From Roseicella frigidaeris (GTDB lineage: Bacteria > Pseudomonadota > Alphaproteobacteria > Acetobacterales > Acetobacteraceae), in contig NZ_QLIX01000012.1 of NCBI RefSeq assembly GCF_003258945.1, positions 1 through 64,000 on the forward strand: 64,000 bases of DNA. Direction: 5' to 3'. Below the pieces are notes generated by a model that worked only from the letters and a program-made list of their open reading frames with translations, was not told the DNA's origin and did no database searches. The translations under genes and the position numbers were made by a program. Within the stretch, counting starts at the first letter, position 1. Each line of letters opens with the position of its first letter. Shown here in pieces: positions 1,707-9,240 of the stretch.

Positions 1707-3323
1707 ATGGGCGACGCCAAGGCGCAATTCGACGCCATCGTCATCGGTGCCGGCTTCTCCGGCATGCACATGCTGAAATCGCTCCGCGACCGGCTCGGCC
1801 TCAACACCCGCGTCTACGAGGCGGGCGAGACGGTGGGCGGCACCTGGTACTGGAACCGCTATCCCGGCGCGCGCTGCGATTCCGACAGCTACATCTACTG
1901 CTTCACCTGGGACCGGCAGCTTCTGCAGGACTGGGAATGGTCCGAGCGCTATCCGGAGCAGCCGGAGATCCTGCGCTACCTCGAACACGTGGCGCAGCGG
2001 CACGACCTGAAGCGCGACATCCGCTTCAACACCCGTGTCACCGCCGGCCACTTCGACGAGGCAACGGATCTCTGGACGGTGCAGACCGATGCCGGCGAGA
2101 CGGCGACGGCGCGTTGGCTGATCACCGCGGTCGGCACGCTCTCGGCGCGCAACATCCCCGAGATCAAGGGCCTCGAGCGCTTCCAGGGCAAGTGGTACCA
2201 CACCAGCAACTTCCCGAAGGGCGGCGTCGACTTCACCGGCAAGCGCGTGGCCGTGGTGGGCACCGGCGCCACGGCGGTGCAGGCGATCCCGATGATCGCG
2301 CAGCAGGCCAAGCAGCTCACCGTCTTCCAGCGGACCGCCAACTACTGCGTGCCGGCGCGCAACGGCAAGGTGGACCCGGAGGTGGTCCGGGCGCGGAAGG
2401 CGGAGTACGACGCCATCGTCCGGCGCATCCGGGAATCGCCCTTCGGGCAGGAGCACTACGCCATCCCGAAATCGGTGCTGGAGACGACGCCGGAGGAGCG
2501 GGAGCGCGAGTTCGACCGCATGTGGGACCAGGGCGGCTTCGCCTTCTGGATCGGCAATTACCAGGACATGCTGACCAACCCGGAAGCCAACGAGATCTGC
2601 GCCGACTATCTGCGCCGGCGCATCCGCCGCACGGTGAAGGACCCCGCCGTCGCCGAGCGCCTGATCCCGAAGGGCTATTACTACGGCACCAAGCGCCAGC
2701 CGCTGGACACCAACTACTACGAGACCTTCAACAAGGAGAACGTGCTGCTGGTGGATGCCAAGACCGATGGCGCCATCGAGGAGATCACCGAACGGGGCAT
2801 CCGGGCCGGCGGCCGCGAGTACGGCTTCGACATCATCGTCTTCGCCACCGGCTTCGACGCCATGACCGGCCCGTTGACGGCGCTGAACCTGCGCGGCCGC
2901 GGCGGCCAGCCGCTGCAGGAGGCCTGGGCGGACGGGCCGCACACCTATCTCGGCATCGCCGTCGCCGGCTTCCCCAACCTCTTCACCATCACCGGGCCGC
3001 AGAGCCCCTCGGTCCTGACCAACATGCCCGTCGCCATCGAGCAGCATGTCGAATGGATCAGCGACTGCATCGACACCCTGCGCCGCGAGGGCCGGACGCG
3101 GATCGAGGCGCTGCCCGAGGCGCAGGCGGCCTGGGGCCAGCATGTGAACGAGGTGATCAGCCAGACGCTCTTCCCGACCGCCAACTCCTGGTACATGGGC
3201 GCCAACATCCCCGGCAAGCCGCGTGCCTTCCTGCCCTATCTCGGCTCGGAAGGCGTCGGCGGCTACCGGCGCCATTGCGATACGGTGGCGGCCGAGGGCT
3301 ATTCCGGCTTCGCGCTGGGCTGA
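1707..3323 (+). CDS. Flavin-dependent Baeyer-Villiger monooxygenase (cyclohexanone monooxygenase-like)
   Basis: Encodes 538 residues of a class B flavoprotein monooxygenase, expected to use NADPH and O2 to turn a ketone into an ester or lactone. FAD-binding GAGFSG is at 14-19, and GGTWYWNRYPG follows at 44-54. The Baeyer-Villiger fingerprint FxGxxxHTxxW/FP is at 159-170 (FQGKWYHTSNFP, with Phe in place of the usual Trp). NADP-binding GTGATA is at 185-190. The frame stays open upstream to 1428. I take the ATG at 1707 because AGGGGAG precedes it by 6 bases and the FAD motif then lies at the usual distance from the N-terminus. The hydrolase gene follows 17 bases after its stop, so the two look co-transcribed. 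Confidence 0.93.
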   Translation: MGDAKAQFDAIVIGAGFSGMHMLKSLRDRLGLNTRVYEAGETVGGTWYWNRYPGARCDSDSYIYCFTWDRQLLQDWEWSERYPEQPEILRYLEHVAQRHDLKRDIRFNTRVTAGHFDEATDLWTVQTDAGETATARWLITAVGTLSARNIPEIKGLERFQGKWYHTSNFPKGGVDFTGKRVAVVGTGATAVQAIPMIAQQAKQLTVFQRTANYCVPARNGKVDPEVVRARKAEYDAIVRRIRESPFGQEHYAIPKSVLETTPEEREREFDRMWDQGGFAFWIGNYQDMLTNPEANEICADYLRRRIRRTVKDPAVAERLIPKGYYYGTKRQPLDTNYYETFNKENVLLVDAKTDGAIEEITERGIRAGGREYGFDIIVFATGFDAMTGPLTALNLRGRGGQPLQEAWADGPHTYLGIAVAGFPNLFTITGPQSPSVLTNMPVAIEQHVEWISDCIDTLRREGRTRIEALPEAQAAWGQHVNEVISQTLFPTANSWYMGANIPGKPRAFLPYLGSEGVGGYRRHCDTVAAEGYSGFALG

Positions 3324-3340
3324 CCGGGGAGGGCATGCGC

Positions 3341-4399
3341 ATGTCGGAGAGCGGCTACTACTCGCAGGCGCTGCACGGCCCCTACGAGACGGAGGAGATC
3401 GGCGACCTCGTGCTCGAGGAAGGCGGCACGCTGCGCGGCTGCCGCCTGGCCTACGCCACCTATGGCCGGCTCAATGCCGCGCGCGACAACGCCATCCTGG
3501 TGCCGACCTGGTATTCCGGCACCCACAAGATCATCGAGCAGGTGCTGATCGGGCCGGGCCGGGCGCTCGACCCGGAGCGCTACTTCATCCTCGTCGTCAA
3601 CCAGATCGGCAGCGGCCTTTCCACCTCGCCGTCGAACACGCCGGCCCCGGCCGGCGGCGCCTATTTCCCCAAGGTCCGCATCGGCGACGACGTCGTGGCG
3701 CAGCACCGGCTGGTGACCGGCAAATTCGGCCTGGAGCGCCTGGCGCTGGTGGTCGGCGGCTCGATGGGGGCGCAGCAGACCTATGAATGGGCGGTGCGCT
3801 ATCCGGAGATGGTGCAGCGCGCCGCTCCCATCGCCGGCACCGCGCGCAACACCCCGCACGACTTCCTCTTCACCGAGACGCTGGTCGAGGCCATCACCTC
3901 CGACCCCGGCTTCGCTAAGGGCTTCTACGCATCGCCGGAAGATGTACGGGAGGGGCTGCTGCGGCACGCCCGGATCTGGGCGGTGATGGGCTGGAGCACC
4001 GAGTTCTACCAGCGGGAGCGGCACAGGACGCTCGGCTTCTCCTCGCTCGACGACTTCATCCTCAACTTCATGTTCGCTTATTTTCGGGTGATGGACCCCA
4101 ACAACCTGCTCTGCATGGCGTGGAAATGGCAGCGCGGCGATGTCGGCCGGCTCGCGGGCGGCGACCTGCGGGCGGCGCTCGGGCGCATCCGGGCCCGCAC
4201 CTGCGTCATGCCGATGACGAGCGACATGTTCTTCCCGCCCAGCGACTGCCAGGCGGAATGGCGCCTGATCCCGGATGCCGCGTTCCATCCGATCGAGACG
4301 GTCGATGGGCATCTCGCGCTGTTCGGCGCCGACCAGGCCGCGATCGCGCAGATCGACCGCCACCTGAAGGCGCTGCTCGCCGCGCCGCCGGGGGGCTGA
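3341..4399 (+). CDS. Alpha/beta hydrolase of the homoserine acetyltransferase (MetX) fold
   Basis: A 352-residue alpha/beta-hydrolase with a complete triad: Ser141 in GGSMGA, Asp in PMTSDMFFPP, and His in VDGHLALFG near the C-terminus. The fold and these motifs match the MetX/homoserine O-acyltransferase family, but many members are esterases. Its position directly behind a Baeyer-Villiger monooxygenase suggests it hydrolyses the ester or lactone product, not that it makes methionine. An alternative ATG at 3335 sits too close to GGGGAGGG (3326-3333), so I use 3341. It ends 20 bp from the convergent alanine dehydrogenase gene. Confidence 0.85.
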   Translation: MSESGYYSQALHGPYETEEIGDLVLEEGGTLRGCRLAYATYGRLNAARDNAILVPTWYSGTHKIIEQVLIGPGRALDPERYFILVVNQIGSGLSTSPSNTPAPAGGAYFPKVRIGDDVVAQHRLVTGKFGLERLALVVGGSMGAQQTYEWAVRYPEMVQRAAPIAGTARNTPHDFLFTETLVEAITSDPGFAKGFYASPEDVREGLLRHARIWAVMGWSTEFYQRERHRTLGFSSLDDFILNFMFAYFRVMDPNNLLCMAWKWQRGDVGRLAGGDLRAALGRIRARTCVMPMTSDMFFPPSDCQAEWRLIPDAAFHPIETVDGHLALFGADQAAIAQIDRHLKALLAAPPGG

Positions 4400-5746: not shown

Positions 5747-6196
5747 TCACCCGGCCACCCGCCACTGGACCAGCGTATAGGGCGGGTCGGCCTCGTCATG
5801 CGGTTCGAACACGGCCTCGACCGGCGTGCCGATCTCCACCTTGGCATCGGGCGGCACGAGCAGGTTGCCGACCATGCGCACGCCATCCGCCTCCGGCAGC
5901 TCGACCAGCACGATGGTATAGGGGCCGAAGCCGTTCAGCGCCGGATGCACCGGGTGATGCGGCCGCTGCCAGGACCAGATGCGGCCGCGCGGCGCCACCT
6001 CCTCCCAGCCGAGGTCGAAGGAATGGCAGCGATGGCAGACCCATTCCGGGCCCCATTGGTGCTTGCCGCAGCCCTGGCATTTCTGGATCACCAGCTTACC
6101 GGCGCGCGTGCCCTCCCAGTATGGCTTCGCGATCGGCTCCTGCGCCGGGGCCGGCAGCCCGTCCGGCAGGGCACGCTTCCGGATCGCCGCGCTCAC
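5747..6196 (-). CDS. Zn-ribbon/OB-fold protein (DUF35 family), partner of the thiolase-fold protein
   Basis: A 149-residue DUF35-type protein with an N-terminal helix, a rubredoxin-like zinc ribbon (Cys40, Cys43, Cys54, Cys57 as CQGC and CHRC) and a C-terminal OB-fold. Such proteins bind acyl-CoA and work in complexes with thiolase-like or hydratase partners. Its ATG overlaps the stop of the upstream thiolase-fold gene by four bases (6193-6196), so the two are translationally coupled and probably form a complex. The acyl-CoA dehydrogenase lies just upstream of both. Confidence 0.88.
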   Translation of the reverse strand: MSAAIRKRALPDGLPAPAQEPIAKPYWEGTRAGKLVIQKCQGCGKHQWGPEWVCHRCHSFDLGWEEVAPRGRIWSWQRPHHPVHPALNGFGPYTIVLVELPEADGVRMVGNLLVPPDAKVEIGTPVEAVFEPHDEADPPYTLVQWRVAG

Positions 6197-7383
6197 AGGC
6201 TGGCCTCCGTCCCGACGACCAGGCTGCTGACCGGCGTGACCATCGGCCCGCCGAGCACGGCGACCACATTGGCGCCGGGCACCTGGTTGATCGCGGTGCC
6301 GCGCAGCTGCCGCACCGCCTCGTTCACCATCTCAAGCCCGTGCATGTAGCACTCGGCGAGGTTGCCGCCCGAGGTGTTCATCGGCATCTTTCCCTTGCCG
6401 CCAGGCGCCAGCAGCCGGTCCAGCACCAGCTCCTCATTCGCCGTCCGCGGATCGACGAAGCCGTGCTCGATCAGGCTCAGCAGCACGCCGCCGGTGAAGT
6501 TCTCATAGGCCTGCACCACGTCGCACTCCTTCGGGCCGAGCTTCGCCATCTCCCACAGGTTGCGCGCCACCGTCTTGAAATGCGCCGAGGCATAATCGGG
6601 CGCGTTGTGCACCGGCGCGGCGCTGCGGTGATGCCCGCCCTGGGCGGCGCCGAGCAGGTAGACCGGCGTCTGCGGCAGGTCCTTCGCCCGCTCGGCTGGC
6701 ACCACTAGCACCGCCGCCGCGCCGTCATTCTCCTGGCAGCAATCGAAGAGGCGGTGGAAAGGCTCGATGATCCAGCGCGAGGCGTCGTATTTCTCCTCGC
6801 TCAGCGGCCGGCCGCGCATCACCGCATTCGGGTTGGCCTGGGCGTGGTGGTAGGAGGCCATGGCGATGGCCCGCAGCGCCTCGTGCCGGATGCCGTGCTC
6901 GGTCATGAAGCGGGTGATCTTCATGGCGAAGCGCTGCGCCGGCGACATCAGCCCGTAGGGGGCGAGGAAGGCGTCGTCGCCGCCTGCCGCCGCCGCCTGG
7001 GCGCCACGGCCGTAGCGGGCGAACTGCCCCTGGGCGAGGGAGCGGAAGGCGATGACGCAATTCGCCATGCCCGACTGCACCGCCGCCCCGGCATTGCCGA
7101 CCGCCGCGGCCACGCCGCCGCCGCCGCCGCCCCAATGCATGTTGGAGAAGCGCAGCTCGTCCACCCCGAGCGCCGCCGCCAGACGCGGCCCGTCCGAGCG
7201 GTCGTTGCCGTAGGAGGCGAAGCCGTCCACCTCGCGCGGATGGATGCCGGCATCCTTGCAGGCGGCGAGGATCGCCTGCAGCGCCAGCTTGAACTCGGCA
7301 TCCGGCGACTGGCCGTGCTTGTAGTAGGTGGTCTCGCCGATCCCGGCGATCGCCACCTTGCCGCGCAACGTGCGCTCGCTCAT
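6193..7383 (-). CDS. Thiolase-fold protein of the lipid-transfer-protein (Ltp/SCP-x) type, lacking the thiolase Cys
   Basis: Encodes 396 residues with the thiolase superfamily fold (N-terminal VAIAGIGETTY, LQAILAACKDAGI, C-terminal GGN plus GANVVAVLGGP). The place where thiolases carry the nucleophilic Cys reads HWGGGGGG (83-90), and the usual C-terminal GHP motif is replaced by GGNLAECYMHG (339-349). Tyr293 (QAYENF) and Tyr346 remain. From memory, Ltp2-type retro-aldolases of steroid side-chain degradation lack the Cys and rely on tyrosines at about these positions, and they need a DUF35 partner such as the gene overlapping here. I therefore infer an aldolase or other C-C lyase acting on an acyl-CoA and do not call it a true acetyl-CoA acetyltransferase. 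Confidence 0.82.
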   Translation of the reverse strand: MSERTLRGKVAIAGIGETTYYKHGQSPDAEFKLALQAILAACKDAGIHPREVDGFASYGNDRSDGPRLAAALGVDELRFSNMHWGGGGGGVAAAVGNAGAAVQSGMANCVIAFRSLAQGQFARYGRGAQAAAAGGDDAFLAPYGLMSPAQRFAMKITRFMTEHGIRHEALRAIAMASYHHAQANPNAVMRGRPLSEEKYDASRWIIEPFHRLFDCCQENDGAAAVLVVPAERAKDLPQTPVYLLGAAQGGHHRSAAPVHNAPDYASAHFKTVARNLWEMAKLGPKECDVVQAYENFTGGVLLSLIEHGFVDPRTANEELVLDRLLAPGGKGKMPMNTSGGNLAECYMHGLEMVNEAVRQLRGTAINQVPGANVVAVLGGPMVTPVSSLVVGTEASL

Positions 7384-7407
7384 GCGCTTCGCATCCTCCC
7401 CATCCGG

Positions 7408-8562
7408 TCAGGCCGAGGCGAAGAGCCGCCGGCCGATGATCTCCTTCATCACCTCGGCCGCGCCGCCGGCGATGCGGCTGACGCGCGCATCCGCCCAGGC
7501 GCGGCCGATCGGGCTCTCCGCCATGTAGCCGGCGCCGCCGAAGAGCTGCAGGCAGCGGTCCAGCACCTCGCATTGCAGGTCGGTGCAGAAGAGCTTGGCC
7601 ATGCCCGCCTCCACCGGATCGAGCGTGCCCTCGAGCTGGCGGGCGATCAGCCCATCGGTCATCGCCCGCGCCGCCGCGGTCTTGGCGGCGAGCTCGGCGA
7701 GGACGAAGCGGGTGTTCTGGAAATCGGCGATGGTGCGGCCGAAGGCCTTTCGCTCCCGCGTATGGGCGACGGTCCAGCCGATCGCCGCCTCCGCCACCGC
7801 GGTGCCGCGCACCGCCTGCACCAGCCGCTCGCGCGCCAGGTTGGTCATCAGCATGGCGAAGCCCTGGCCCTCCTCGCCGAGGCGGTTGCCGAGCGGCACC
7901 CGCACCTCGTCGAAGAAGAGCTCGGAAGTATCGGCGGCATGCATGCCGATCTTGGCCAGGTTGCGGCCGCGCCGGAAGCCCGGCATGCCGGCCTCGACCA
8001 CGATCAGGCTCATGCCATGCGCGCCCGCCGCGGGGTCGGTCTTGGTCGCGGTGATGATCAGGTCGGCATTCTGGCCGTTCGAGATGTAGGCCTTCTGGCC
8101 GCGGATGACGTAGTGCTCGCCGTCGCGCTCGGCGCGGGTGCGGATCGCCTTCACGTCGCTGCCGGCATCCGGCTCGGTCATGGCGATGGCGCCGATCAGG
8201 CTGCCGTCGCACATGCCGGGCAGCCAGCGGCGCTTCTGCGCCTCGGTGCCGAAGCGGGCGATGTAGGTCGCCACCATGTCGGAATGCACGATGAAGCCGG
8301 GGCCGGAGAGGTTGGCGCGCGCCAGCTCCTCCGTCACCACCGCGCAATGGCCGAAATCGCCCCCTGGCCCGCCCCAGTCGGCCGGGATGTCGCAGCAGAG
8401 CAGGCCGGCCTCGCCGGCCTTGCGCCAAGCCTCCCGCGGCACGATGCCGGCGGCTTCCCAGGCGTCGTTCTGCGGCACCAGCTCCGCCTCGACGAAGCGG
8501 CGCACGGCGGTCCGGAAGATCGCATGGCCTTCGCCAAACACCACCCGCGGGCGGTCCAGCAT
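7408..8562 (-). CDS. Acyl-CoA dehydrogenase family protein
   Basis: FAD-dependent acyl-CoA dehydrogenase, 384 residues, introducing an alpha,beta double bond into an acyl-CoA and passing electrons to ETF. Family blocks visible are IAMTEPDAGSD, GQKAYISNGQNAD, ERKAFGRTIADFQ and QLFGGAGYMAESPIGRAWADAR. The C-terminal site where many family members carry the catalytic Glu (YEGT) reads AGGA. A Glu is present in NLARERLV, aligning by eye with the isovaleryl-CoA dehydrogenase type of base. The start MLDRPRV has GGAAGG upstream. It is first in a three-gene operon with the thiolase-fold and DUF35 genes and faces the MarR gene. Confidence 0.93.
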   Translation of the reverse strand: MLDRPRVVFGEGHAIFRTAVRRFVEAELVPQNDAWEAAGIVPREAWRKAGEAGLLCCDIPADWGGPGGDFGHCAVVTEELARANLSGPGFIVHSDMVATYIARFGTEAQKRRWLPGMCDGSLIGAIAMTEPDAGSDVKAIRTRAERDGEHYVIRGQKAYISNGQNADLIITATKTDPAAGAHGMSLIVVEAGMPGFRRGRNLAKIGMHAADTSELFFDEVRVPLGNRLGEEGQGFAMLMTNLARERLVQAVRGTAVAEAAIGWTVAHTRERKAFGRTIADFQNTRFVLAELAAKTAAARAMTDGLIARQLEGTLDPVEAGMAKLFCTDLQCEVLDRCLQLFGGAGYMAESPIGRAWADARVSRIAGGAAEVMKEIIGRRLFASA

Positions 8563-8583: not shown

Positions 8584-8628
8584 GCTTGTCGGGCGCATCG
8601 TAAGCAGGCGTACGATCCGATGGCAAGC
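8584..8628. promoter_or_regulatory. Candidate MarR operator between divergent genes
   Basis: The 165-bp gap between the acyl-CoA dehydrogenase and marR starts holds a nested palindrome. ATCGTA (8597-8602) and TACGAT (8611-8616) flank 8 bases. Outside them lie GCTTG (8584-8588) and CAAGC (8624-8628) with almost the same centre. The placement and symmetry suit a dimeric MarR protein controlling both directions. This is inference from symmetry only. Confidence 0.5.
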
Positions 8629-8727: not shown

Positions 8728-9240
8728 ATGAGCGATGCGACGCGGACCAATGGCGAGTTCCGCATCGGCTTCCTGGTCCATGACGTCTCCAGGCTGCGGC
8801 AGATCCTGTTCGACCAGGAGATGCGGCCGCATGGCGTCACCCGCGCCCAATGGTCCGTGCTGGCGCAGCTTTCCCGCAAGGAGAATGGCGGGATGACGCA
8901 GGCGGAGCTGGCAAGGCTGCTCGGCCTCGGCAAGGTCGCGGTCGGCTCCATGCTCGATCGGCTCGAGAGCGCCGGCCTCGTGGTCCGGCGGCACGATGCC
9001 CATGACCGCCGGATCAACCGCGTCTTCGTCACCGCCCAGGGGCGCAGGATCCTCGGCCGCATGGTGGAGGTCGGGCGCCGGTTGCACGGCCAGGTCCTCG
9101 CCGGCCTCTCCGCCGAGGAGGTCGCCACCGCCAACCACGTGCTGGCGCGTATGCGGCGCAACATCCGCCAGGCGTTGCAGGAGGGATCGGCCTTCGCCGA
9201 CAGGCCCGAGGATGCGGGCAGCGAGCTCGGGATCGGCTGA
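8728..9240 (+). CDS. MarR family transcriptional regulator
   Basis: A 170-residue winged-helix regulator. The DNA-binding part spans roughly residues 40-110, with TQAELARLLGLGKVAVGSMLDRLESAGLVVRRHDAHDRRINRVFVTAQG being the recognition helix and wing (read as separate short blocks). Helices at both ends form the dimer interface. The ATG at 8728 follows CGACAG and is only a modest ribosome site. Divergent arrangement with the acyl-CoA dehydrogenase operon and the palindrome between them suggest it represses that operon until an acyl-CoA or aromatic effector binds. Confidence 0.92.
   Translation: MSDATRTNGEFRIGFLVHDVSRLRQILFDQEMRPHGVTRAQWSVLAQLSRKENGGMTQAELARLLGLGKVAVGSMLDRLESAGLVVRRHDAHDRRINRVFVTAQGRRILGRMVEVGRRLHGQVLAGLSAEEVATANHVLARMRRNIRQALQEGSAFADRPEDAGSELGIG

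Follow-up and report, generated by a model that had tools for sequence, protein, structure and literature searches.

A probable CoA-dependent retro-aldolase of the thiolase fold, encoded with a DUF35 partner in Roseicella frigidaeris

The window analysed here is a stretch of 64,000 nucleotides from Roseicella frigidaeris (contig C4, positions 1 to 64,000 of NZ_QLIX01000012.1; genome 5.8 Mb), and the locus of interest comprises a three-gene cassette and a divergent regulatory gene, with the following features.

5747-6196, minus strand: DUF35 partner, 149 aa, with a rubredoxin-like zinc ribbon and an OB fold (Pfam)
6026-6079, minus strand: zinc ribbon of the DUF35 protein, Cys40-x2-Cys43-x10-Cys54-x2-Cys57, invariant in the DUF35 alignment (A2)
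6193-7383, minus strand: putative Ltp2-like aldolase, 396 aa (P0001), a thiolase fold without the nucleophilic Cys
6346-6351, minus strand: codons of C345-Y346; Tyr346 is the predicted general acid, Cys345 is clade-specific
6496-6507, minus strand: codons of Y293-E294-N295-F296; Tyr293 is the predicted base, and Asn295 replaces the oxyanion His of Ltp2
7114-7137, minus strand: codons of H83-W84-G85 to G90; G88 stands at the column of the thiolase Cys
7408-8562, minus strand: acyl-CoA dehydrogenase (ACAD), LCAD-like, 384 aa, first gene of the cassette
8597-8616, no strand assigned: operator-like palindrome (inverted repeat) ATCGTAAGC-AG-GCGTACGAT, between the ACAD and MarR genes
8728-9240, plus strand: MarR-family regulator, divergent (Pfam MarR_2/MarR)

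Family, fold, the absent cysteine, the tyrosine pair, the DUF35 pairing and the cassette itself were computed directly. The aldolase and DUF35 genes lie where the original prediction had placed them, and overlap as it had claimed, the GTG start of the latter sharing 4 nt (GTGA) with the stop codon of the former. The ACAD, which had been taken for an isovaleryl-type enzyme, proved to be LCAD-like instead, scoring 348 bits with Geobacillus 2PG0, its closest relative, and 339 bits with LCAD, against 240 bits for isovaleryl-CoA dehydrogenase. Eleven relatives have a near-identical palindrome a short way upstream of their ACAD gene, and 1.84 Mb of fetched DNA held one stray match. A MarR homologue (cluster c11) is encoded near the cassette in 13 loci, the window included. 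The palindrome is a likely, putative MarR operator.

The DUF35 protein carries the Pfam domains zf-ChsH2 and OB_ChsH2_C, and its top PDB match is ChsH2 (6OK1_B). Its C-x2-C-x10-C-x2-C zinc ribbon, OB fold and adjacent gene are those of a ChsH2-type DUF35 protein, and its zinc ligands follow the C4 pattern of TcChsH2, as opposed to the Cys3His1 pattern of Shy. A DUF35 gene lies directly downstream of the aldolase gene, on the same strand, in 79/79 assessable orthologous loci. DUF35 genes also adjoin those of BbsAB, PhlBC and an archaeal thiolase, however, so that adjacency to thiolases and acyltransferases alike means this arrangement is not in itself proof of an aldolase.

Thiolase_C_1 is the sole Pfam domain of the aldolase reading frame. 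Among NCBIfam models, those for thiolases match weakly, and the top match is PRK07855, an Ltp2-like 'lipid-transfer protein' subfamily, at 350.7 bits, below its cut-off of 469. The Ltp2 structure 6OK1 is the best PDB match by sequence (238 bits vs 141 for the next) and by profile (318 vs 180 bits). It is also the best fold match of the AlphaFold2 model (mean pLDDT 77.6, pTM 0.85; low-confidence stretches at 124-145, 205-217 and 252-262), with predicted Foldseek TM-scores of 0.83 (query) and 0.86 (target). Structures of thiolases and acyltransferases all score far below 6OK1 on sequence, profile and fold. Among named relatives, the closest is that of Roseicella sp. DB1501 (97% identity). Of 200 genomes sampled from the host's family, 29 encode close homologues, which cover 16 of 102 genera; such homologues are also found in Gammaproteobacteria, Betaproteobacteria and bins of Rokuibacteriota and Chloroflexota.

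Residue columns were assigned by alignment with the thiolases 7YVY (Pyrococcus) and BbsB (7PXP), and with a paralogue from the same genome that retains ACATG, HDCF and GHP motifs. The nucleophilic Cys of 7YVY and BbsB, which thiolases carry at a helix of the N-terminal domain, aligns with G88. This column is Gly in 84/84 orthologues and likewise in TcLtp2 and CtSal, and W84 and the six-Gly run G85-G90 are unchanged throughout the 84 sequences. The HWGGGGGG stretch that the original prediction had read as the vacated nucleophile region is thus borne out, as is the loss of the GHP motif, since Tyr346 stands at the column of its His; Tyr293 takes the place of the His of HDxF. BbsAB (benzoylsuccinyl-CoA thiolase) and SCP2 thiolases share the fold, and BbsAB also has a DUF35 subunit, but these enzymes combine a nucleophilic Cys with HDxF, in contrast to the Gly and YENF of the window protein. 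A thiolase or acyltransferase that recruits its Cys from elsewhere (Cys345, Cys215/216 or Cys109) would be compatible with the weak NCBIfam thiolase scores, with the conservation of Cys345 beside the GHP-His column (83/84 orthologues) and with that of Cys215-Cys216 (84/84). We nevertheless consider this unlikely, and set it aside as the leading reading: the nucleophile column is invariably Gly, Tyr stands in for the His needed to activate a Cys, the aldolase TcLtp2 equally possesses Cys215/216, and thiolase structures rank far below 6OK1 as noted above. On its sequence, the window protein very probably cannot perform 3-ketoacyl-CoA thiolysis, which pathway models would assume from a name such as acetyl-CoA acetyltransferase or thiolase. 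Relatives are annotated in databases as 'acetyl-CoA acetyltransferase', as thiolase and in part as lipid-transfer protein; the warning that a generic label would mislead was therefore apt, as orthologues do carry it.

The two Tyr residues, claimed earlier to occupy Ltp2-like positions, do align with Tyr294 and Tyr344 of TcLtp2, which PMC12329534 describes as catalytic base and acid, respectively. The match is hardly accidental: both are kept in 84/84 orthologues, and of the 11 Tyr in the protein they are the only ones that are invariant and also Tyr in TcLtp2. The surrounding motif differs, as YENF (84/84) replaces Y294-D-H296-F, placing Asn295 (84/84) at the column of the TcLtp2 oxyanion residue His296; Cys345, adjacent to Tyr346, is a further mark of the clade. 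According to the same source, mutation of H296 lowers efficiency about 14-fold, and an Asn at the oxyanion site may therefore be tolerated.

It is possible, judging from the sequence, that the change from His to Asn supports a different reaction. Some other CoA-dependent carbon-carbon lyase, acting through the Tyr/Asn site by water-driven retro-Claisen cleavage or decarboxylation, would accommodate Asn295 and Cys345 as clade-specific changes in the active site, and the related TbSLP slowly decarboxylates malonyl-CoA (PMC12329534). Such a lyase appears improbable given that both acid/base Tyr residues of the proven retro-aldolase are retained without exception, and that the relative CtSal showed no decarboxylation of malonyl-CoA (PMC12329534). 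A non-catalytic scaffold or lipid-transfer protein, as the annotation of part of the family implies, is very improbable: 93 positions are invariant over the 84 orthologues, the full putative active site among them, which suggests that catalysis is under selection.

Phylogenetic analysis places the protein near, and not within, the steroid enzymes. In the maximum-likelihood tree the aldolase belongs to a 31-row clade of its own (support 100/100) next to Ltp2, nested in a 46-row Ltp2-like clade (100/99). The true Ltp2s form a separate clade (98/92) that includes two loci with igr-like neighbours, namely igr-type MaoC hydratase and ACAD genes (L091, L108). CtSal, 4U4E, thiolases and six paralogues from the same genome fall outside the 46-row clade, the paralogue L082 being its immediate outgroup. 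Tyr occupies both columns in all examined members of the Ltp2-like clade, whereas outgroup proteins other than IpfD place His, Gln or Glu at the second of these. The six paralogues (L082-L087) are further SCP2-like thiolase-fold genes of four active-site types (YDCF/H; YDAF or YDSF/H; YDDF/Q; and HDCF/H with Cys), several of which likewise have a DUF35 neighbour. With Ltp2-type residues, a clade of its own and a PRK07855 score below cut-off, the window protein would work like an Ltp2 without being one.

The window pair resembles Ltp2-ChsH2 of Thermomonospora curvata (6OK1) in its Cys-less thiolase fold, its Tyr base and acid columns and its C4 zinc-ribbon DUF35 protein; it differs in YENF/Asn295 for YDHF/His296, the loop of Trp and six Gly, Cys345, its separate clade and its non-steroid context. 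That TcLtp2 is the closest characterised relative, and the Ltp2-like PRK07855 the top NCBIfam match, might suggest a true Ltp2 orthologue, acting in the removal of the steroid C3 side chain. We regard this as very unlikely, and reject it because of the tree, the motif, the score relative to the NCBIfam cut-off and what the genome encodes. Base and acid Tyr are both present (Y293, Y346, 84/84), but YDHF with its oxyanion His is replaced, the protein lies outside the Ltp2 clade and under the PRK07855 cut-off, and a steroid (igr-type) gene context is missing, none of the 80 loci of relatives having igr-type neighbours and other genes standing there instead. Two steroid markers were sought in the host genome, and these two only: the search for 3-ketosteroid dehydrogenase (KstD) returned no match above cut-off, and a MaoC hydratase domain of the ChsH2 type was not found. 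Because the KstD family search gives weak matches in all 14 control genomes, only the absence of a match over the cut-off was counted. Together, these two absences make steroids an unlikely substrate. Of the retro-aldol branch for a side chain that had been proposed at the outset, sequence and fold uphold a retro-aldolase of Ltp2 type that lacks the Cys, has two Tyr and is paired with a DUF35 protein; the side chain itself is unproven, given YENF, a position outside the Ltp2 clade, an LCAD-like ACAD and the two steroid markers that were not found.

Other thiolase-fold aldolases offer instructive comparisons. IpfDE acts in ibuprofen degradation, together with a CoA ligase and a Rieske dioxygenase, and is reported to be a retro-aldolase that yields propionyl-CoA and 4-isobutylcatechol (PMC9195938). 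We assigned ipfD of pIBU218 from the gene order of PMC9195938, in which it is flanked by the dioxygenase and OB-fold genes; the gene (L133 38640-39827) is annotated as a hypothetical protein and described as a thiolase. In our alignment IpfD shares the Tyr pair (YDAF and Y) and a nucleophile column without Cys. IpfDE thus parallels the window pair in its Cys-less fold, Tyr pair and adjacent OB-fold (DUF35-type) gene, but IpfD is only 30% identical to the window protein, forms a weakly placed long branch outside the Ltp2-like clade, and has an adjacent two-subunit Rieske dioxygenase. With Ltp2 and IpfD, two unrelated pathways thus possess two-Tyr proteins that are described as retro-aldolases. 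Sal-Shy, the bile acid aldolase of Comamonas testosteroni (9MYR), similarly pairs a thiolase-fold aldolase that has the first Tyr with a DUF35 partner. In Sal, however, Cys304 of YDCY serves as the acid and the second Tyr has given way to Gln, Shy has a Cys3His1 zinc finger, and Sal falls outside the Ltp2-like clade in the present tree; the YENF motif and C4 partner of the window pair separate it from this type, with its catalytic Cys and Cys3His1 partner.

The surroundings of the cassette vary considerably. Only 16 of 80 loci have the ACAD gene immediately upstream of the aldolase gene, so that the ACAD is not a general feature of the clade and was rejected as an obligate partner. In Roseomonas-type relatives, the locus encodes a type III CoA-transferase, a second ACAD, a RipB/Ich-like MaoC hydratase and a RipC-like CitE lyase, together with an MFE-2-type hydratase, an acyl-CoA synthetase, a TctC receptor and a MarR regulator. 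Neighbours in relatives thus have functions in CoA activation, dehydrogenation and hydration. Roseicella DB1501 harbours the cassette inside such a CoA-transferase/MaoC/CitE locus (L001 7671-10624, compared with window 5747-8562 and L128), whereas contig C3 of the present genome retains CoA-transferase, second ACAD, MaoC and CitE genes intact without it. Given its different sites in two related genomes, the cassette looks like a block that has relocated as a whole. No hydratase gene lies within the window's cassette.

Elsewhere, betaproteobacterial homologues (57-64% identical) stand beside a Rieske oxygenase, a PDR/VanB-type reductase and CoA-transferases. Two of three loci also encode a KstD-like FAD enzyme near the aldolase. 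These loci (L088 1402-10635, L094 and L090) are on conjugative or large plasmids. In Delftia (L088) the Rieske oxygenase is close to 7FHR, a structure whose only name is putative phthalate 4,5-dioxygenase. The Rieske context recalls, by analogy, the logic of ibuprofen degradation, and the plasmid clusters possibly encode an undescribed aromatic-CoA pathway. Outside the Roseomonas group, an Amidohydro_2 protein of ~400 aa (cluster c9, e.g., L036 6949-8163) is encoded near the aldolase in 19 loci (L033-L080), and in three gammaproteobacterial bins (L060 10869-14267, L062, L068) a single-chain biotin carboxylase/carboxyltransferase of ~1130 aa follows directly after the DUF35 gene. The window also contains, at 1707-4399 on the plus strand, a Baeyer-Villiger-type monooxygenase (1707-3323) followed by a MetX-like alpha/beta hydrolase. 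This pair could act on a ketone product, but it was rejected as a downstream step, as a homologue of the monooxygenase is near only 3 of 82 loci. As neighbours vary between clades, no single substrate can be read from context.

Taken together, we consider it likely that the aldolase and DUF35 proteins form a CoA-dependent retro-aldolase complex, built like Ltp2-ChsH2, that is not a thiolase and acts outside steroid metabolism. We infer the reaction, the complex, the order of steps, the partner hydratase and the non-steroid substrate class as follows. The overlapping genes would yield a complex of Ltp2-ChsH2 architecture, in which the bound zinc-ribbon/OB protein may shape the substrate cleft of the aldolase. 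The upstream ACAD would supply an enoyl-CoA, to which a hydratase encoded elsewhere (candidates being a MaoC/RipB-like enzyme on contig C3 and an MFE-2-type enzyme on C1) would add water to give a beta-hydroxyacyl-CoA. Tyr293, as predicted base, would deprotonate the beta-hydroxyl, and cleavage of the bond between C-alpha and C-beta would produce a carbonyl compound (ketone or aldehyde) together with an acyl-CoA enolate, which Tyr346, as predicted acid, would reprotonate for release of acetyl-CoA or propionyl-CoA. Such a step would fit substrates with a fully substituted beta carbon, as these do not permit oxidation to a ketone followed by thiolysis. More tentatively, and with somewhat less than even confidence, we propose that the clade defined by the Trp-Gly loop and YENF represents a distinct class of thiolase-fold aldolases, unconnected with steroids and with Asn rather than His at the oxyanion site, whose substrate would be a beta-hydroxyacyl-CoA with a fully substituted beta carbon in a pathway yet to be described. 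In Acetobacteraceae the enzyme might work with an alkylsuccinate/itaconate-type module; in Betaproteobacteria it might act once a CoA ester has undergone Rieske dearomatisation, as in ibuprofen degradation.

The natural exchange of Asn for His offers a way to test what the oxyanion residue does. If the reading advanced here is true, Tyr-based retro-aldol cleavage would be a general route past quaternary beta carbons that extends beyond steroids, and would be common to steroid, ibuprofen and at least one further pathway in Proteobacteria, Chloroflexota and Rokuibacteriota.
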